This document shows positions 6,887 to 26,631 of a stretch of DNA of 28,645 nucleotides, in pieces (the first letter of the stretch is position 1; each line of letters begins with the position of its first letter). Origin of the DNA: a virus; the IMG/VR virus record IMGVR_UViG_3300032331_001252, positions 1-28,645 of that record; one strand, given 5' to 3'. The notes under the pieces are model-generated. The model had not been told where the DNA came from. It made no database searches and saw nothing but the letters and a program-made list of their open reading frames with translations. A program made the position numbers and the translations under genes.

Positions 6887-8065
6887 ATGGGTAAAAAGGT
6901 TGTTTCTGTTTGGTCTAATAGTCCATACCAGCCAACAGGTTATGGTGTGCAAGCCGGACTGCTTGTTGATCGTCTAAAGCGTGATGGTTACGATGTTGCT
7001 GCATTATCAAACTATGGTCTTGAAGGTAATAATGCGACGCTACAAACTCCGCATGGTGAGATCCCTCATTATGCTCGTGGAATGGAAGCCTACTCTAACG
7101 ATGTAGCACCAATGCACCATCATCATTGGCTACAGCAACATCCTGGTGCTAAAGACCTGTTTATTAGTCTTTATGATGTGTGGGTTCTTAAGGGTGCAGC
7201 GTGGGACAAGATGAATAACATCGCTTCTTGGACTCCGCTAGACCATGTGACTATGCCACCAGCCGTTGAGGCGTGGTTGCGTAAACCTAATGTGACACCT
7301 ATTGCTATGTCACCTTTTGGTCAGAAACAAATGAACGATATGGGCATTGATTGTCTGTATGTTCCCCACGCCATTGACACTAAAATTATGAAACCAACTT
7401 ATGACATTAATGGTGTGCCTACTCGTAAGTATCTTGGTTTTAGTGATGATGATTTTATTGTTGGTATGGTTGCGGCCAATAAAGCTTCAGGTTTAATTCA
7501 TCGAAAAGCATTTTCGGAAAATCTTATGGCTTTCAGTATTTTTGTGAAGTCACATCCTGATGCAAAACTTTATTTGCATACTGATCCTTTAGGTTCTGCT
7601 GGTGGTTGGAATCTTTTAACTTTGTGTGAAGCTGTAGGCATCCCTGAGTCGGCTATCCGCTTTCCTAACCTGGTTGATTACAAGTATGGAATTGCACCAG
7701 AAATATTAGCTGCATTTATGACAACTATGGATGTTGTATTGGCTACTTCGTATGGTGAAGGATTCGGTGTGCCAACTGTAGAGGCTCAAGCCTGTGGCAC
7801 TCGTGTTATTGGTTCTAATTGGGCTGCAACTCCTGATCTTGTTGCTGATAATTGTTTCCTTGTTGATGGTCAGCCTACTTGGGATTCAGGTCAAAATGCT
7901 TGGTGGTCTATTCCTTTAGTTCCGTCTATTGTTGAGGCTTTGAATCTTGCTTATGATGCACCTCGTGGTGTATCTACTACTTGTATAGACTTTGCTTCAC
8001 AATTCGATGTTGAAACTGTTTGGGACAAGTATTGGACTCCGGCATTGGATAAGTTGTTTGCATGA
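6887..8065 (+). CDS. Glycosyltransferase, GT4/GT-B type
   Basis: This 392-aa enzyme probably transfers a sugar from a nucleotide-sugar donor. The N-terminal Rossmann half opens with 'VVSVWSNSPYQPTGYGVQAGLLVDRLKRDGYDV'. The C-terminal half holds 'FIVGMVAANKAS...HRKAFSENLMAFSIFVKSHPDAKLYLHTD' and the donor-site EX7E motif in 'EGFGVPTVEAQACG' (about residues 291-299), as in GT4 enzymes. It lies between capsid and connector genes and is the first of three coupled sugar genes. The acceptor could be a virion protein or a host surface glycan; the sequence does not say which. Confidence 0.85.
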   Translation: MGKKVVSVWSNSPYQPTGYGVQAGLLVDRLKRDGYDVAALSNYGLEGNNATLQTPHGEIPHYARGMEAYSNDVAPMHHHHWLQQHPGAKDLFISLYDVWVLKGAAWDKMNNIASWTPLDHVTMPPAVEAWLRKPNVTPIAMSPFGQKQMNDMGIDCLYVPHAIDTKIMKPTYDINGVPTRKYLGFSDDDFIVGMVAANKASGLIHRKAFSENLMAFSIFVKSHPDAKLYLHTDPLGSAGGWNLLTLCEAVGIPESAIRFPNLVDYKYGIAPEILAAFMTTMDVVLATSYGEGFGVPTVEAQACGTRVIGSNWAATPDLVADNCFLVDGQPTWDSGQNAWWSIPLVPSIVEALNLAYDAPRGVSTTCIDFASQFDVETVWDKYWTPALDKLFA

Positions 8066-8709
8066 TTCCTGTTATGGGGTTTGCTACAGTCAAACGCTTT
8101 GATCTTGCAGATCGTTTAGTTCATTCGATTGATCATCCCGTAGAACATTTAGTTATTATTGATAATTCTGGTACTGGCTCATACAATCCGCCTAAGAATA
8201 CTAAAGTAAAAAATACTTGGGTGATTCCCATGCCATTTGGTATTGGCCTAGTGGGTGCATGGAATCTGATTGTTAAGTCCACACCGTATGCACCCTATTG
8301 GGTGTGCGTGAATGATGATGCGTGGTTTGAGCCTGGCGCATTAAAAAAAATTTGTCATGAAGTTGATCCGACAACCATGAACTTTCCAAGCATTATCCCT
8401 CATTGGTCTTGTGCCATTTTTGGTGAAGAAGTTGTTGCTAAAGTTGGCTTGTATGATGAGCGTTTCTATCCACTCTATTTTGACGATAACGATATGGAAC
8501 GCCGTATTAAACATGCTGGATTCGAGTTCAACTGGATTGACGCTAAAGTTCATCACGATAACAGCTCAACAGTAAACTCTGGCTTTCAGGATGCAAATGG
8601 TCGCACTTTTGGTAAGAATCAAAAACTTTTGGATGAAAAGATTGCATCCGATGACTTCTCTGAAGGTAACTGGAGTTTGCAAGTGCGAAGGGATAACCGT
8701 TGGGACTAA
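8062..8709 (+). CDS. Glycosyltransferase, GT-A (GT2-like)
   Basis: A 215-aa protein starting within the stop of the GT4 gene (ATGA). 'VEHLVIIDNSGTGSY' resembles the nucleotide-binding start of GT-A folds. 'GLVGAWNLIVKSTPYAPYWVCVNDDAWFEPGAL' carries a DD-type metal motif (about D85-D86), and 'LYDERFYPLYFDDNDMERRIKHAGFEFNWIDAKVHHDNSST' matches the acidic ED/W region and late His of GT2 enzymes. No membrane segment is present, so it should act in the cytoplasm. It is likely the partner of the preceding transferase on one glycan. Confidence 0.8.
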   Translation: MIPVMGFATVKRFDLADRLVHSIDHPVEHLVIIDNSGTGSYNPPKNTKVKNTWVIPMPFGIGLVGAWNLIVKSTPYAPYWVCVNDDAWFEPGALKKICHEVDPTTMNFPSIIPHWSCAIFGEEVVAKVGLYDERFYPLYFDDNDMERRIKHAGFEFNWIDAKVHHDNSSTVNSGFQDANGRTFGKNQKLLDEKIASDDFSEGNWSLQVRRDNRWD

Positions 8710-9128
8710 AAGTTTACACGGGCGGGACTTTCGACTTGTTTCACTCAGGCCATGTAGCGTTTCTGAAGCGATGTGCAGAGATCGGCTCTGTGATTGTTTC
8801 TTTGAATACTGACGAGTTTATTGAGACCTATAAGGGTAAGCCACCTGTAATGTCTTTTGCCGAGCGTGAAGCTGTGTTGTTGTCTTGTCGATATGTTGAT
8901 TCAGTAGTGGCTAACTATGGTTGTGAAGATTCAACGATTGCTATTGACCTGGTAAAGCCGGACATGGTTATTATTGGATCTGATTGGGCTAGGCGTGACT
9001 ACTATAAGCAGATGCGTTTTGATCAAGATTGGTTAGATGAACGCGGTATTGGTCTTTGTTACATACCTTACACAAATGGCATTAGCACTACAGGACTTAA
9101 GAAGCGTATTGTAGAGCAAGTAAAATAG
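8700..9128 (+). CDS. TagD-like cytidylyltransferase
   Basis: A 142-aa nucleotidyltransferase that should activate a phosphorylated alcohol or sugar with a nucleotide, as TagD makes CDP-glycerol. It has 'YTGGTFDLFHSGH' with the HxGH active site (residues 15-18), 'MSFAEREAVLLSCRYVD', 'KPDMVIIGSDW' and a late 'ISTTGLKKRI' matching the family's ISTT motif. The start is TTG at 8700, overlapping the GT2-like gene by 10 nt, with GAAGGGA (8687-8693) as ribosome binding site. The exact substrate is unknown. A second, different enzyme of this fold lies at 26197-26631. Confidence 0.85.
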   Translation: MGLKVYTGGTFDLFHSGHVAFLKRCAEIGSVIVSLNTDEFIETYKGKPPVMSFAEREAVLLSCRYVDSVVANYGCEDSTIAIDLVKPDMVIIGSDWARRDYYKQMRFDQDWLDERGIGLCYIPYTNGISTTGLKKRIVEQVK

Positions 9129-16138: not shown

Positions 16139-16264
16139 ATGACTATTTTTATTTGTAATGCTGAGGGTTGTGCTAATCAAGGAGTTGTTTACAACTTTGG
16201 TGAGGATCATCCTACTGAAGCTATGTGTGGTGGCTGTAAAGCTATGTTGAAACCACAAGCATGA
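16139..16264 (+). CDS. 41-aa zinc-ribbon-like protein
   Basis: This short ORF has the sequence pattern 'MTIFICNAEGCANQG' then 'AMCGGCKAMLKPQA'. Four cysteines in two pairs (C6/C11 and a CGGC knuckle near residues 30-33) suggest a small zinc ribbon. Its stop overlaps the next start (ATGA), and it follows the fibre gene by one base. Function is unknown; it could be a structural or regulatory protein. Confidence 0.65.
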   Translation: MTIFICNAEGCANQGVVYNFGEDHPTEAMCGGCKAMLKPQA

Positions 16265-16479
16265 CTGAAGTAACGAAAACTCAGACAACTCCGGTTCTTC
16301 TGGCCGACATTAGTAATCGTTTAGCCGTTATCGAGGCTCGTTTAGAGATTATTAGTGATCACGAGTCGCGTATTCGTGAGTTGGAACGGGCAAGGTGGCA
16401 GTCTGCCTGGCTTACTTCAATTCTTTCATCAGCACTCGCTTCAGGCATTGTTGCCTTTATTATTAAAAGTTTTATTTAA
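16261..16479 (+). CDS. Coiled-coil membrane protein, holin candidate
   Basis: A 72-aa protein with a charged helical region ('ISNRLAVIEARLEIISDHESRIRELERARWQ') followed by one membrane segment ('AWLTSILSSALASGIVAFIIKSFI'). That layout matches XhlA-like/DUF-type lysis accessory proteins with a cytoplasmic coiled coil and a C-terminal anchor. It opens the lysis region. Whether it forms holes itself or assists the two-helix protein at 18805 cannot be read from the sequence. Confidence 0.65.
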   Translation: MTEVTKTQTTPVLLADISNRLAVIEARLEIISDHESRIRELERARWQSAWLTSILSSALASGIVAFIIKSFI

Positions 16480-16518
16480 CAAAAAATCAACACCTACGCA
16501 CTTACCGATTGGATACTA

Positions 16519-17964
16519 ATGCGTAGGATCACCCTTTTTATTGTTGCTTTATTAGCGTTTACTTTGCCTGTTTCTGGTGTGGCTTTTGCTGATTCAACTT
16601 CTGATTACAATAGTAAAGTTTCTGCAGCTCAAGCTAAGGTTGCTTCTGCTCAAGCAAAACTTGTTTCGGCTCAGGCTGTTTTGAATGATTTGAAAGTTTC
16701 ATCTAATGGTGAGGCCGAGTTGTTGGCTTCAGCACAATCGGCAGTAACTTTGGCTAAGGATGAATTGACTTTGGCCGCTTCATCGTATTCGACGGATCAG
16801 ACATCCTATAACAATGCTTTGAGTGTTGTGCAATCGTTTGAGGCGATTGTGGATGATGCTGTTGTTGTTGTGAACTCTGCAGCTGATGTGGTTGATTCTG
16901 CGTATGCTGCGTACTTGTCGGCACAGTCTGTTACTGATTCTGCGTTGTCTGCTGTGAATGTTGCACAGTTAGCGTATGACGGTTCTTCGGTTACTACTGG
17001 TGGGCAGTCGTCACCAGGTTTGACTATGCGCGTGTATAACGGGATTCAAAGCCGTGGTAATCCACCGTCACGATCTGATTCGCTTTACACCCTTTGTAAA
17101 ACAACTACAGTCAGTCAAATCAATGTTGATTGGGGTGGTGGTGGTGTTGCTGGCTGTAATACTGAGTATTTTATGATTCACTACACCGGATACATCACTT
17201 ACCCTACTGACAAGTCAGTTTATTTTTATGCACAAGCTGATGACGGTTTTCACATGTCTATCAATGGTCAGACACTTATCAACGACTGGTCGTTGAAGGG
17301 TTGTAGTGGTAATACTGCTGGTGTGTTCACTTTTGAGGCTGGCAAGTCGTATCCGATTGATGCTTGGATGTATGAGTGGACTGGTGGGGCATGTAACATT
17401 CTCAACTATCAGCCTGTGGGTTCTGGTCAATGGAGTGTCGCACCTGCATCATTTTTCTCTACAAGCCCTGTAGCGGTCACAACTAAAGATCCTGCACTAA
17501 AGGCTGTGTTGGATGCTAAAACTGCCGTGTATGTGTCTGCTGTGGCTTCTGAAGAGCAAGCCTTGACTGATTACGAGAACGCTACAGATGTTTATGATTC
17601 GGCGTATGCGGATTGGGAATCTAAAACTACAACACTTAATCAGAAACGAGTGTTATTGGATCAGGCTGAAACACTTTTGGCTGGTAGCGAAGATGTTTGG
17701 CAAACAAAATCTGACGCTTACACCGATGCTGATGCTATTTTGACAACCCGTAAAACCAGGTTTGCTGGCCTGTTTGAGTCAATCAAAAATCAAACAACTT
17801 ATGTAGATTCTCTAATCGTTGATTTGGCTACTGCTAAGTCTGAGCTTGCTGCTATCCCTAAACCTGTTTCACCACCTAAAGCAAGCCAAAAAGTTGTTAT
17901 CAAACCTGTAGTTGTCACGAAAGTTGTTGCCAGACCTGTGTTTGTTCCCCGCCCAAAATTGTGA
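16519..17964 (+). CDS. Secreted coiled-coil protein with PA14-like domain
   Basis: A 481-aa protein beginning with a Sec signal peptide ('MRRITLFIVALLAFTLPVSGVAFA', cleavage likely after residue 24). Residues about 27-150 form an Ala-rich coiled coil with 7-residue units such as KVSAAQA/KVASAQA/KLVSAQA. Residues about 163-310 resemble a PA14/GLEYA carbohydrate-binding beta domain: 'GLTMRVYNG', 'YTGYITYPTDKSVYFYAQADDGFHMSINGQTLIND', 'GKSYPIDAWMYEW'. Its four cysteines fit disulfides after export. A second coiled coil spans about 320-445, and the tail is Lys/Val/Pro-rich. Signal peptides are rare on virion proteins, so a host-surface or lysis-stage role is plausible. Function is unproven. Confidence 0.8.
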   Translation: MRRITLFIVALLAFTLPVSGVAFADSTSDYNSKVSAAQAKVASAQAKLVSAQAVLNDLKVSSNGEAELLASAQSAVTLAKDELTLAASSYSTDQTSYNNALSVVQSFEAIVDDAVVVVNSAADVVDSAYAAYLSAQSVTDSALSAVNVAQLAYDGSSVTTGGQSSPGLTMRVYNGIQSRGNPPSRSDSLYTLCKTTTVSQINVDWGGGGVAGCNTEYFMIHYTGYITYPTDKSVYFYAQADDGFHMSINGQTLINDWSLKGCSGNTAGVFTFEAGKSYPIDAWMYEWTGGACNILNYQPVGSGQWSVAPASFFSTSPVAVTTKDPALKAVLDAKTAVYVSAVASEEQALTDYENATDVYDSAYADWESKTTTLNQKRVLLDQAETLLAGSEDVWQTKSDAYTDADAILTTRKTRFAGLFESIKNQTTYVDSLIVDLATAKSELAAIPKPVSPPKASQKVVIKPVVVTKVVARPVFVPRPKL

Positions 17965-19096: not shown

Positions 19097-19130
19097 CCCC
19101 CGTGAGTCTACGCAACTTGCGGGGGTTCTT
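19097..19130. terminator. Bidirectional terminator between late genes and whiB
   Basis: CCCCCGTGAG (19097-19106) pairs with CTTGCGGGGG (19116-19125), two pairs being G:T, followed by TTCTTATTT on the plus strand. It sits between convergent genes, so it can end both the rightward late transcript and leftward whiB. The T-run is better for the rightward direction. Confidence 0.8.
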
Positions 19131-19452
19131 ATTTAAGTTGTTGTGACTGTTTAGCAAACCTGATTAGTTCTTGGCGTTCACGAGTTGTGAGTCCACCCCA
19201 AATGCCGTATTCTTCTTTCGCTTCAAGAGCGTATTCCAGGCATAAATCTCTCACGGGACATAAAGCACAAATTTGTTTGATCATGTGTCGTGTTTTGCGT
19301 GACTCAATGTTTTCGGCTTCTTCGTACATCATGTCTGGGAATGATTGACAGGCCACTCCCCCTTGTTCTTCGATAACTTTGGTAAGTTCGTAGAACTTCT
19401 TTTGGGCTTTGTTTGATAAATGTCCGTCTATGAGCATAGAATCACGATACAC
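19129..19452 (-). CDS. whiB: WhiB-family transcription regulator
   Basis: A 107-aa iron-sulfur regulator, the only clear leftward gene. Four cysteines (C35, C62, C65, C71; the last three in 'ICALCPVRDLC') match the [4Fe-4S] ligand set, and 'GIWGGLTTRERQ' (from residue 83) is the WhiB turn that contacts the sigma factor. The C-terminal 'RFAKQSQQLK' is basic. The family is confined to actinobacteria and their phages, so it identifies the host phylum. GTG 19452 or ATG at residue 6 could be the start; neither has a strong ribosome binding site. It probably controls phage or host promoters. Confidence 0.95.
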   Translation of the reverse strand: MYRDSMLIDGHLSNKAQKKFYELTKVIEEQGGVACQSFPDMMYEEAENIESRKTRHMIKQICALCPVRDLCLEYALEAKEEYGIWGGLTTRERQELIRFAKQSQQLK

Positions 19453-21530: not shown

Positions 21531-21899
21531 ATGGGTGCTTGTATTCGTTGTGGTTTAGAGTATTTATCTGAGATAGCAACTGAAAGGGCGTTAGAAGAGG
21601 GCCGCAAAATTGTTTGCGCGGATTGCCGACGATCTAAAGTGAAAGTTATCAAGTATTGGATTGATGGGGTTGCTACTTTTTGTCGCCCGTGGCATGGAGA
21701 TTTTGATGCTGACGATTATCCGATTGATGATAAGGGTGTCCGGTTTACTGGTGAGGTTGCGTTGTGTGGTCACAAGGATTGCATAGCTTTTGAGCATCGC
21801 CCAGGTATGCAAGTACCAAGAAAAAATAAGGTTAGGGTGCATGAAATGGTGTCTATGGAGTCTTTTATTGCTGTTGCTGAAGCTCGTGGTCAGTTATGA
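21531..21899 (+). CDS. Zinc protein, HNH-related (paralog 1)
   Basis: A 122-aa protein with an N-terminal zinc ribbon ('CIRCG...CADCRR'), the core 'YWIDGVATFCRPWHGDFDADDYPIDDKG' and a late 'ALCGHKDCIAFEHRPG', which resembles the Cys/His end of some HNH nucleases. The same order of motifs appears at 24236-24499, so these two genes are paralogs. A nuclease or DNA-binding role is inferred from the zinc ligands. The 3' end overlaps the methyltransferase start by ATGA. Confidence 0.7.
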   Translation: MGACIRCGLEYLSEIATERALEEGRKIVCADCRRSKVKVIKYWIDGVATFCRPWHGDFDADDYPIDDKGVRFTGEVALCGHKDCIAFEHRPGMQVPRKNKVRVHEMVSMESFIAVAEARGQL

Positions 21900-22453
21900 A
21901 AATTGGTTCGTTGTTTAGTGGTTATGGTGGTTTAGATCAGGCTGTTGAGAAGGTTACTGGTGGCAAGGTGGTGTGGCATTGTGAGTGGGATGATGCGCCG
22001 TCAAAGGTTTTGGCTGCTCGTTATCCTGGTGTACCAAATTATCGTGATGTTTCCGAGGTTGATTGGGAATCGGTTGAGCCTGTAGACATTTTGACAGGCG
22101 GTTTTCCATGTCAAGATTTAAGCCTTGCAGGTAAAAGGGCAGGGTTGAAAGAGGGTACTCGTTCCGGTTTGTGGAGTGAGTTTTTTAAAGCTATTACTAT
22201 TTTGAAACCTAGATTGGTGGTTATTGAAAATGTCAGAGGATTATTGTCAGCATCAGCCCATAGCGGAAGTGGACTCGGTGACGGGTTTGTGGTTGAAAGC
22301 GCAGGAGATCCCCCTCTTCGGGCCATTGGTGCTGTTCTCTCAGACCTTTCCAGCATCGGGTACGATGCAAGGTGGGAAGGTGTACGAGCTGCCGATGCAG
22401 GAGCACCTCACAACCGATTCAGGGTCTTTATCATCGCCTATCCCCGAAGATAG
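21896..22453 (+). CDS. C5 cytosine methyltransferase, catalytic part
   Basis: A 185-aa protein holding the N-terminal motifs of DNA C5 methyltransferases: motif I 'SLFSGYGGLD', motif IV 'GGFPCQDLSLAG' with catalytic C72, motif VI 'VIENVRGL', and motif VIII 'GAPHNRFRVFIIAYP'. Full enzymes continue with a target-recognition domain and motifs IX-X. Here the frame stops at TAG 22451-22453, and those parts lie in the +1 frame of the overlapping gene at 22230-23420. The end reads TAT CCC CGA AGA TAG, so a +1 slip on CCCC (22442-22445) would join both. Split gene, programmed slip and assembly error are all possible. Confidence 0.9.
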   Translation: MKIGSLFSGYGGLDQAVEKVTGGKVVWHCEWDDAPSKVLAARYPGVPNYRDVSEVDWESVEPVDILTGGFPCQDLSLAGKRAGLKEGTRSGLWSEFFKAITILKPRLVVIENVRGLLSASAHSGSGLGDGFVVESAGDPPLRAIGAVLSDLSSIGYDARWEGVRAADAGAPHNRFRVFIIAYPRR

Positions 22454-23420
22454 CATGTTCCGCACTCCACAAGCTAAAGAAGGTGAAGGTGGAGCAATCT
22501 TTGAAGATGTAAAACGTGATCGTGGAAATCATGTCATGGTTCGCGATCAGGTTGCACAGCTGGCTTTGCAAAATGGTTTTCCTGTTTCAGAAGGTCTAAC
22601 TGATGCGCTACTGCCTACACCTAACACTATGGAACATCGTGAGATTAAAACTCCTGAGCAAATTGCTGAATTGAAAGCCAAATCGCCTGGCGGGTATCGT
22701 AACTTGCGTGAATCAGTAGTAAACGAGCTGCTACCTACCCCGATTGTTCGTGACTATAAGGATGGTTCTGCAGCTCAAGAACGTGATGGGAAAGTTTCGA
22801 CTGATACGGTTGCCAGGGCAATCTTCAATAGCGGAGAAGTTCTTTTAGGCACTCCACGAACATCATCAGCTAACTCACCTAGTAGCAAACAAGTAGAAAA
22901 TGGTGCAGATAAAGCCAGACTTGAAGATCAGGTGAGATCAGCTAATGAAGGTTACATTAGTTGGGGTAAGTTTGAACCTGCTATCCGCCGTTGGGAACAA
23001 GTGCTTGGCAGACCAGCACCAGCACCAACAAAACCTGACGGTAAAGACGGTAACCATCGTCTTGCTGCCGAATTCACGGAATGGATGATGGGGCTCGATT
23101 TTGGTCATGTGACGAACCCTGAGCTTGGTTTAACTCGTGTAGAAATGTTGAAACTTTGCGGTAACGGGGTTGTGCCTCAACAGGCAGAGTTGGCTTTGAG
23201 AATGTTGCTTGATGGTCATGTTCCAGAATTTAATGCGAATCCGGTGATGCCTACTTTGACAACTAACGGTACTGGCCGTCACTCCGCTGGTTATGATTCG
23301 TTAGGCACTCTGCAAATGATTGAAGTTGCAAAAGGGATTTTACCTCGTGAATATGATTCATGGGATCAAATAAACGGAAAAATACCTGAAGAATGGCGTG
23401 ATGGAAAGGCTAAAAAATAA
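22230..23420 (+). CDS. C5 methyltransferase, target/motif IX-X part
   Basis: A 396-aa product in the +1 frame, overlapping the catalytic part by 224 nt. The overlap encodes 'FSQTFPASGTMQGGKVYELP', a conserved-looking segment of phage methylase-linked proteins. Repeated 'LPTP' units follow ('ALLPTPNTMEH', 'ELLPTPIVRDYKDGS'). The C-terminus has 'FEPAIRRWEQVLGRPAPAPTKPDG', 'EFTEWMMGLDFGHV' (motif IX-like) and 'LCGNGVVPQQAELALRMLL' (motif X). It probably supplies sequence recognition and completes the fold. ATG 22230 has GGTGG upstream; TTG 22224 is an alternative start. Confidence 0.8.
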   Translation: MSEDYCQHQPIAEVDSVTGLWLKAQEIPLFGPLVLFSQTFPASGTMQGGKVYELPMQEHLTTDSGSLSSPIPEDSMFRTPQAKEGEGGAIFEDVKRDRGNHVMVRDQVAQLALQNGFPVSEGLTDALLPTPNTMEHREIKTPEQIAELKAKSPGGYRNLRESVVNELLPTPIVRDYKDGSAAQERDGKVSTDTVARAIFNSGEVLLGTPRTSSANSPSSKQVENGADKARLEDQVRSANEGYISWGKFEPAIRRWEQVLGRPAPAPTKPDGKDGNHRLAAEFTEWMMGLDFGHVTNPELGLTRVEMLKLCGNGVVPQQAELALRMLLDGHVPEFNANPVMPTLTTNGTGRHSAGYDSLGTLQMIEVAKGILPREYDSWDQINGKIPEEWRDGKAKK

Positions 23421-24226
23421 TGTCCATTGAAATAATGACAACGGTTCTCAAGTACAGCCAGGCTCACGGAAGAGCAAAACTTGTGTTGCTTGGTATTGCC
23501 AATCATCAAGGTGATGAAGGTGCTTGGCCGTCTATTGCGACTTTGGCTGTTTATGCCAACGCTTCGGAACGGTCTGTGAAACGCGACATTCAAGAACTCA
23601 TACAAATGGGTGAACTTGTTGTCGAAGTGAACGCTGCACCTATCGGTGGTCAATACCGAACTAATCGTTATTGGGTCACTATAGATCATCTAGGGGTGAC
23701 AGATCAGGTAAGCAGGGGTGACAACTCAGGTAATCAGGGGTGTCAGCCTGGGTCATCAGGGGTGACACGTGTTGGCACACAAAACATAATTAACCATAAA
23801 AGAAACTTAATTAACTATATGGCTGATTTTGAAAACTTTTGGAACGCCTATCCGCGCAAAGAAAACAAGAAAGCAGCAGTCAAAGTTTGGGCATCGCTTG
23901 TGTCTGATGATTTGATTGACGAAGTGATTGCGGGAGCTATTCGGTTTGCTAATGATCCGAATTTGCCACCTAAACAATTTGTGCCTCACGCAGCTACTTG
24001 GTTGCGTTCTGAGCGTTGGAATGATCCGGCACTTCCTGAGCGTCAAAAAACTGTGGAAGAGTTACAGGCCATAAAGTCGGCTGAAGCTAAGTTACGTCGT
24101 GATCGTGATGTTGCTGAAACTTTAAAAATGATCGCTGATCAACCAAAGCATGAAGCAGCTCCAAGATGTGAGCATGGCAAGATTGTGGCAGCGTGTATGA
24201 AATGTATCAGGGCTGGTATCGTCTAA
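23420..24226 (+). CDS. Replication initiator-like HTH protein
   Basis: A 268-aa protein starting one base inside the previous stop. Residues about 1-80 form a winged HTH ('LVLLGIANHQGDEGAWPSIATLAVYANASERSVKRDIQELIQMGEL'). A low-complexity Gly/Ser/Gln linker (about 90-120) is encoded by the iterons. The next domain begins 'FENFWNAYPRKENKKAAVKVWASLV', the signature of phage replisome-organiser/initiator C-terminal regions, and continues 'FVPHAATWLRSERWND'. The end 'RCEHGKIVAACMKCIRAG' may bind zinc. It probably binds the iterons in its own gene, like lambda O, and recruits host replication proteins. Confidence 0.8.
   Translation: MSIEIMTTVLKYSQAHGRAKLVLLGIANHQGDEGAWPSIATLAVYANASERSVKRDIQELIQMGELVVEVNAAPIGGQYRTNRYWVTIDHLGVTDQVSRGDNSGNQGCQPGSSGVTRVGTQNIINHKRNLINYMADFENFWNAYPRKENKKAAVKVWASLVSDDLIDEVIAGAIRFANDPNLPPKQFVPHAATWLRSERWNDPALPERQKTVEELQAIKSAEAKLRRDRDVAETLKMIADQPKHEAAPRCEHGKIVAACMKCIRAGIV
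23692..23779 (+). repeat. Four 22-bp iterons (putative origin)
   Basis: The 10-mer AGGGGTGACA begins at 23692, 23714 and 23758, and its variant AGGGGTGTCA at 23736. Spacing is exactly 22 bp each time. The first two full units match at 19 of 22 positions; later units diverge after the core. Since 22 is not a multiple of 3, each unit is read in a different frame, so selection on DNA rather than protein is likely. This is typical of initiator-binding iterons, here two helical turns apart. Confidence 0.85.
23781..23820 (+). other. AT-rich putative DNA unwinding element
   Basis: These 40 bases, directly after the last iteron, contain only six G or C. They include near-repeats TAATTAACCAT (23787-23797) and TAATTAACTAT (23808-23818), 21 bp apart. 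Position beside the iterons fits the melting site of an origin. Confidence 0.7.
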
Positions 24227-25950: not shown

Positions 25951-26207
25951 AACTTGAGCGTTGGCGTGAAGCTGGCAAGGAAGTGGGTCGTAAGTTGGGT
26001 GTAGTACAGGAGCGTCGCCGGAATGTGCAGGTAGCTGCAGATTTGGAACGCAAATACGAGTATTGGATCAAGTTTGGCCGTGAAGTTGAGCAGGGTCGCA
26101 TTATTGAGATTTTGCTTGAGGAACAGACTAACTGGACTAAGCCTCAAAGTTTTAGTTACAAGAACGCTTTGCAAGCATTGATTGAAAGGATTAGTAATGA
26201 GTCCTAA
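25935..26207 (+). CDS. Charged helical hypothetical protein
   Basis: A 90-aa helical protein ('REIELERWREAGKEVGRKLGVVQERRRNVQVAADLERKYEYW') with many Arg/Glu. AGGAGA at 25918-25923 serves it. TTG 25926 is only two bases away, so ATG 25935 is preferred. It overlaps the genes on both sides. A DNA- or protein-binding helical bundle is likely; no motif gives a function. Confidence 0.55.
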   Translation: MDREIELERWREAGKEVGRKLGVVQERRRNVQVAADLERKYEYWIKFGREVEQGRIIEILLEEQTNWTKPQSFSYKNALQALIERISNES

Positions 26208-26631
26208 ATCAATTGTTATTGTGACTGGCGGTTTTGATCCGCTACATCGTGGTCATCTTGCTTATCTTGAGGCAGCGTATCGTATGGGTGATTATGTCAT
26301 TGTTGGTTTGAATAGTGATGCCTGGTTGCAGCGTAAGAAGGGTAAGCAGTTTCTTGACTTTGAGGATCGTGAGGCGGTTTTGAACGCTTTGTGGATGGTT
26401 GATGAGGTTTTAGAGTTTGATGATTCTGATGGGTCAGCTGTGAAACTGATTGAGTCAATGTTGGAAACTTTTGATGAGGCCAAGATCCTTTTTTGTAATG
26501 GTGGTGACCGGACTAAGGAGAACATTCCTGAGATGCGTATTCACGATGATCGTTTAGAGTTCGTGTTTGGTGTTGGTGGCGTGGATAAGTTGAATTCTTC
26601 GTCAGACATTTTGGCTCGGTGGGAAAAGTGA
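26197..26631 (+). CDS. Second cytidylyltransferase-like enzyme
   Basis: A 144-aa nucleotidyltransferase with 'VTGGFDPLHRGHLAYLEAA' (HxGH at residues 17-20), 'VIVGLNSDAWLQRKKG', 'DFEDREAVLNALWMVDEV' and 'ILFCNGGDRT'. 'GGFDPLHRGH' is closer to the RfaE/HldE or TagD-like nucleotidyltransferase domain than to enzymes such as NadD. It is only distantly similar to the protein at 8700-9128, so two different activated precursors may be made. ATG 26197 has AAAGGA upstream; an in-frame TTG at 26182 is less likely. The substrate is unknown. Confidence 0.82.
   Translation: MSPKSIVIVTGGFDPLHRGHLAYLEAAYRMGDYVIVGLNSDAWLQRKKGKQFLDFEDREAVLNALWMVDEVLEFDDSDGSAVKLIESMLETFDEAKILFCNGGDRTKENIPEMRIHDDRLEFVFGVGGVDKLNSSSDILARWEK

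Follow-up and report, generated by a model that had tools for sequence, protein, structure and literature searches.

The initiator gene and its repeat array

The window, by which we mean the whole IMG/VR record analysed here as a single record of 28,645 bases, carries a gene for a predicted replication initiator with an array of four AGGGGTG[A/T]CA units in its middle, followed by an AT-rich tract. The features considered below are these:

23420..24226, + strand: replication initiator gene, 268 aa, with winged helix, linker and C-terminal helical domain (phrog_270, HTH_36, model)
23420..23689, + strand: predicted winged-helix DNA-binding domain, residues 1-90 (AlphaFold model; Pfam HTH_36)
23690..23797, + strand: predicted disordered linker, residues 91-126 (pLDDT below 50)
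23692..23701, + strand: iteron 1 core AGGGGTGACA, frame 0 (GVT)
23714..23723, + strand: iteron 2 core AGGGGTGACA, frame 1 (RGD)
23736..23745, + strand: iteron 3 core AGGGGTGTCA, frame 2 (GCQ), where T in place of A prevents a TGA stop in frame
23758..23767, + strand: iteron 4 core AGGGGTGACA, frame 0 (GVT)
23781..23820, no strand: candidate melting site, an AT-rich tract with six G/C among its 40 bases (composition, imperfect tandem pair, AAC motifs)
23807..24136, + strand: C-terminal domain, helical, with the pattern F..FW..YP...TWL..RW (residues 130-239); candidate for helicase recruitment (sequence, model)

The protein matched phrog_270 over residues 1-233 (E = 6.3e-34; PHROG name "replication initiation protein"), and Pfam HTH_36 scored above cut-off at residues 18-64, in agreement with the first-pass annotation, which had called it an HTH protein. 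The winged helix drew many fold matches, including the DnaD N-domain and a plasmid initiator, all middling and informative on fold class only. For the C-terminal domain, Pfam and fold searches gave no known fold, no Pfam family and no convincing match. The full-length profile matched SPP1 gp39 (1no1) at E = 0.069, the domain profile gave no such match, and 1no1 was absent among the fold-search matches listed for this domain; the earlier description of the domain as replisome-organiser-like thus comes down to PHROG names and one unreproduced match. The two ORFs next after the initiator gene, where we sought a P-type helicase loader, had no significant PHROG match. Near the C-terminal end of the initiator, a CxH...CxxC pattern at 24167-24205, which the listed relatives do not show, may be a zinc site.

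The four units span 23692-23767 with spacings of exactly 22, 22 and 22 bp, as the first-pass annotation had reported, three of them identical (23692, 23714 and 23758) and the copy at 23736 deviant. When all 28,645 bases were scanned at lags of 12-34, the array was the top repeat of the record, scoring 29 against 17 for the runner-up; the maximum in 20 Markov-1 simulations was 12. With a period that is not a multiple of three, the copies fall in frames 0, 1, 2 and 0, and a single DNA unit is translated as GVT, RGD or GCQ, so that the repeat encodes no protein repeat, again as first proposed. The units encode residues 92-116, inside the sole low-confidence stretch of the AlphaFold model (residues 91-126), which agrees with the linker predicted earlier and places the units where peptide sequence should matter least.

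The 40 bases at 23781-23820, picked out at first pass for their six G/C, are the joint most AT-rich 40-mer of the record, tied with a place at about 16446-16497, and contain an imperfect 21-bp tandem pair (23782-23819, score 12). The other equally AT-rich place lies between the end of an ORF (16261-16479) and a gene at 16519, and probably reflects intergenic regulation. The best dyads in the four units were no better than those in shuffles, the Rfam and tRNA scans were both empty, and GC skew, a check suggested in the first-pass annotation, showed no turning point and no origin signal at the array.

Elsewhere in the record, a WhiB transcription factor gene (19129-19452, minus strand, PF02467, E = 3e-17) lies on the opposite strand to the surrounding genes and is the main clue to an actinobacterial host. 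Judged by this gene and by the closest named relatives of the record, which infect Arthrobacter, the record is most likely an actinophage. A C-5 cytosine methylase gene is apparently split: an ORF at 21896-22453 covers positions 1-161 of the 324-position profile, and a GNGVVPQ stretch typical of such enzymes occurs in a second ORF, at 22224-23420, which is in another frame; this may be a natural frameshift, a sequence error or a split gene. There are also two cytidylyltransferase-like genes, at 8700-9128 and 26182-26631, the former lying beside a glycosyltransferase gene (6887-8065) and a further gene in the structural region, where virion or surface glycosylation is possible.

Linker repeats among relatives and the domain that accompanies them

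A single-sequence search of viral contigs yielded no confirmed relative, and a DNA-level phage search with the ori region gave one weak Gordonia phage match only. Profile searches returned 227 loci, and a filter at <90% DNA identity left 111 initiator genes with a homologous winged helix. We tested these for repeats at each lag against codon-shuffled sequence, a shuffle that keeps both the amino acids and the codon usage. A significant repeat was found in the linker of 87% of the 111 genes, compared with 1% for the N-terminal region and 5% for the C-terminal region, and the significant linker lags cluster at 21-23 bp. As a control, the middles of other ORFs were positive in 14 of 236 cases (6%). 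The relatives are phylogenetically non-independent, but the result survives thinning, with 20 of 23 genes still positive at <50% N-domain identity. Lambda, TP901-1 and Tuc2009, with intragenic origins mapped by experiment, have initiator genes that were positive in the same test.

Closer to the window, at least two GGGGTGWC units are kept in 28 of the 33 non-redundant genes with at least 60% winged-helix identity. The remaining five belong to a separate small-phage branch, and at least three of them have other linker repeats. Close relatives have therefore largely retained the repeats, whose loss the first-pass annotation had named as evidence against its reading; copy number among relatives ranges from 3 to 5. 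The relatives belonging to phrog_270, phrog_1032 and phrog_8540 include Arthrobacter phages Eesa and Galaxy, Pseudomonas phage JBD68 and Shigella phage SfV. By this comparison, the intragenic repeat layout appears to be shared by nearly all members of a family of "helix-turn-helix" genes, mostly unannotated, that reaches from actinophages to enterobacterial and Pseudomonas phages.

Exchange of domains among the relatives bears on which part of the protein goes with the sites. Where the window-type winged helix is joined to the window-type C-terminal domain, the linker is periodic in 63 of 69 genes; where it is joined to another C-terminus, 35 of 42 genes are periodic, at similar lags. Genes that combine the window-type C-terminal domain with another N-terminus are periodic in 42 of 58 cases, mostly at 12 or 15 bp. 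At the level of sequence, these relatives show that the iterons accompany the winged helix and not the C-terminal domain. Different recognition helices also go with different cores: N[AS]SERSVKRDI pairs with GGGGTGAC, RCSPRSVQ with GGGGTGC or GGGGTGA, EISERSVQNHI with GGTGCA, and SISIRTVQRAV with CGGGGCG. From the domain swaps and this covariation, we infer that the winged helix is the reader of the units.

Frame usage and the AACC element

We compared 116 copies from 33 close genes having at least two GGGGTGNC units. The core CAGGGGTGACA is nearly invariant among them and the flanks are variable. In these genes GGGGTGAC is found 80 times in frame 0 (GVT) and 32 times in frame 1 (RGD); it is absent from frame 2, in which it would give a TGA stop. 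The only two frame-2 copies, the third unit of the window at 23736 and one in relative L102, both have GTGTC (GCQ). After a frame-1 copy, the following unit stands at +23 (22 times), at +20 (4 times) or at +22 with the T variant (twice); the combination of +22 with GTGAC was seen in 0 of 30 cases after a frame-1 copy versus 26 of about 50 after frame 0. Avoidance of a stop is itself forced in any open frame; the telling point is that the unit is retained rather than lost, by a one-base shift in spacing or by a single substitution (A to T), the deviant third copy of the record being of the substitution type. Stop-codon avoidance thus makes the constraint of DNA over protein visible base by base.

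Codon choice and location follow the same pattern. Linker GVT is spelt GGG GTG ACA in 78 of 81 instances, while GGG accounts for 15% of the glycine codons in the rest of these genes. GGGGTGWC is absent from the remaining 21.9 kb of the close genes outside the linker, and in the records of seven relatives 24 of 26 motif copies lie inside arrays. Judged by these patterns, the DNA sites are shown to be selected whatever the frame in which the protein is read. Since they also fall exactly in a predicted disordered linker and are tied to the winged helix, the linker peptide would be largely a by-product of the sites.

In most relatives, AACC repeats also follow closely behind the iterons on the coding strand. 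AACC pairs are most often 11 (55 pairs), 12 (21) or 13 (26) bp apart, with a further peak at 22-24 and few spacings in the gap. Of the 111 genes with the window-type winged helix, 69 have pairs at 10-13 bp, where codon shuffles predict 4.3; of the 58 genes with the window-type C-terminal domain but other N-termini, 3 have them, where 2.1 are expected. The latter figure led us to reject the possibility that the AACC array goes with the C-terminal domain. AACC is used in more than one reading frame in 61 of the 71 genes having pairs 9-14 bp apart, and outnumbers GGTT 331 to 70. In 65 of 95 genes, against an expectation of 10.3, the 40-mer richest in AT within the gene comes immediately after the array. 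The AACC motifs, which like the iterons accompany the winged helix, probably belong to the melting site. The AT tract of the record itself holds no exact AACC pairs; it has a degenerate AT-rich form, with AAC at 23783, 23792, 23804 and 23813. Lambda O was considered as a carrier of phased AACC and rejected, as none was found in it. The Tuc2009 rep gene (L249 1597-2379), annotated as origin-bearing, has four AACC at exact 11-bp spacing at gene positions 343-379; its protein belongs to other families than that of the window, so that the AACC may be a shared element or a convergence. In the part of the open-access literature that we searched, we found no description of the stop-avoidance pattern or of the AACC element.

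A predicted origin inside its own initiator gene

Iteron origins inside an initiator gene are already known from lambda, SPP1, Tuc2009 and TP901-1, and the window adds a member in layout. Lambda ori is located in gene O (PMC7466680), and there, as in the window, iterons 20-24 bp apart sit mid-gene in the region between domains and are followed by an AT-rich tract (PMC7466680). The term "lambda-like" used in the first-pass annotation therefore holds for the layout, but not for the protein family or the symmetry of the sites: lambda O belongs to Pfam Phage_rep_O and the window protein to HTH_36, PF04492 (Phage_rep_O) gave no match to the window protein at E up to 1 (5.7e-36 for lambda O), and lambda iterons are imperfect dyads, whereas those of the window have no dyad. 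Both proteins match phrog_678 (window protein, E = 1.9e-10; lambda O, E = 1.7e-35), so a distant winged-helix kinship is possible.

SPP1 oriL, in gene 38, likewise combines direct repeats with an AT-rich unwinding element, both of them within the gene for the initiator (PMC6316719), here compared by description only, and SPP1 has a separate helicase loader, gp39, and helicase, gp40. The replisome organisers of Tuc2009 (rep2009) and TP901-1 (ORF13) bind direct repeats in their own genes (PMC8965321); like the window gene, both score in the repeat test, but their C-terminal domains are Rep_Org_C and DnaB_2 and their core sites differ. The phages of phrog_270, phrog_1032 and phrog_8540 share the homologous winged helix and linker repeats of about 21-22 bp, theirs including downstream AACC-type repeats at 11-12 bp, and differ in the core, which varies according to the recognition helix (GGGGTGCC, GGTGCA, dyads in SfV). 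For phage P1, the origin is probably inside the initiator gene repL, which has been studied by means of synonymous changes (PMC9948254). In the iteron plasmids RK2 (TrfA) and F (RepE), iterons also adjoin an AT-rich region with short repeats (PMC4081077), but they lie outside the linker-coding segment of the initiator gene, and the Rep proteins have two winged-helix domains.

We propose, with a probability of about 0.87, that the array and the AT tract form the phage replication origin, placed inside the gene of its own initiator, read by the winged helix and opening at the AT tract. The first-pass annotation had proposed an origin here, and the comparison, with repeats in 87% of linkers against 1% and 5% in the flanking regions, argues for it. 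The winged helix of the initiator would very likely bind the four direct 22-bp iterons; as these are two helical turns apart, the bound copies would align on one face of the DNA. The initiator-iteron complex would then strain and open the adjacent AT-rich tract. In what is the least certain step, the C-terminal domain might help to bring the host replicative helicase to the opened strands; relatives have exchanged this domain, which agrees with its being adapted to differing partners.

Three other explanations were weighed against an origin. Units serving as operators, through which the initiator or another regulator controls transcription through or inside its own gene while the origin lies elsewhere, would agree with the common autoregulation of initiators and with the resemblance of iteron 4 plus the AT tract to a sigma-70 promoter (GTGACA-17-CATAAT, 10/12). 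Such promoter-like sites are not enriched, however (16 versus 14.6 in shuffles), and the second hexamer keeps at least 4 of 6 bases in only 16 of 29 close relatives, which makes an internal promoter a weak candidate. Operators would, moreover, be expected upstream of the gene and not in its middle, and the mapped origins of lambda, SPP1 and Tuc2009 have just this arrangement of a site in mid-gene and an AT tract; we regard operators as very unlikely.

We give slightly less credence still to sites for a different protein (partition, packaging or a host factor) that merely lie in the initiator gene. Phased repeats are used by other proteins too, and binding by the initiator is here deduced from sequence, but the sites follow the winged helix across C-terminal swaps, their core tracks the recognition helix, and nearly all genomic copies in the seven relatives' records are inside the initiator gene. 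The slimmest chance goes to a protein-level or neutral repeat, a low-complexity linker that changes length by slippage. The predicted disorder and the variable copy number would suit it; the period and the three readings of the same DNA, the invariant core between diverging flanks, the fixed codon choice, the covariation of core and recognition helix, and the codon-shuffle tests all contradict it, and the frame usage refutes it for the close family.

Beyond the origin proposed for the window, we put forward a broader and more tentative model, which we hold at a little below even odds. In a large clade of phage initiators, the protein-encoded origin would have two parts, duplex iterons and, in the next 60-90 bp, AACC motifs phased at 11-13 bp, which the same winged helix would recognise on opening; both parts would override the linker peptide, and both would move with the winged helix when C-terminal domains are exchanged. 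In RK2 and F, repeats of the unwinding element are bound by initiators as single strand (PMC4081077), and by analogy the AACC motifs may have a similar role. The phased element is a concrete candidate for the melting or loading step.

The class of origins inside initiator genes is old; its reach across a mostly unannotated HTH family comes from the present comparison. If confirmed, the origin and its recognition site would be predictable from the initiator gene for hundreds of phages and prophages, and the pairs of recognition helix and site would be usable for studying orthogonal replicons in laboratory strains. If the two-part origin is true, both origins and their specificity would be readable from the initiator gene alone.
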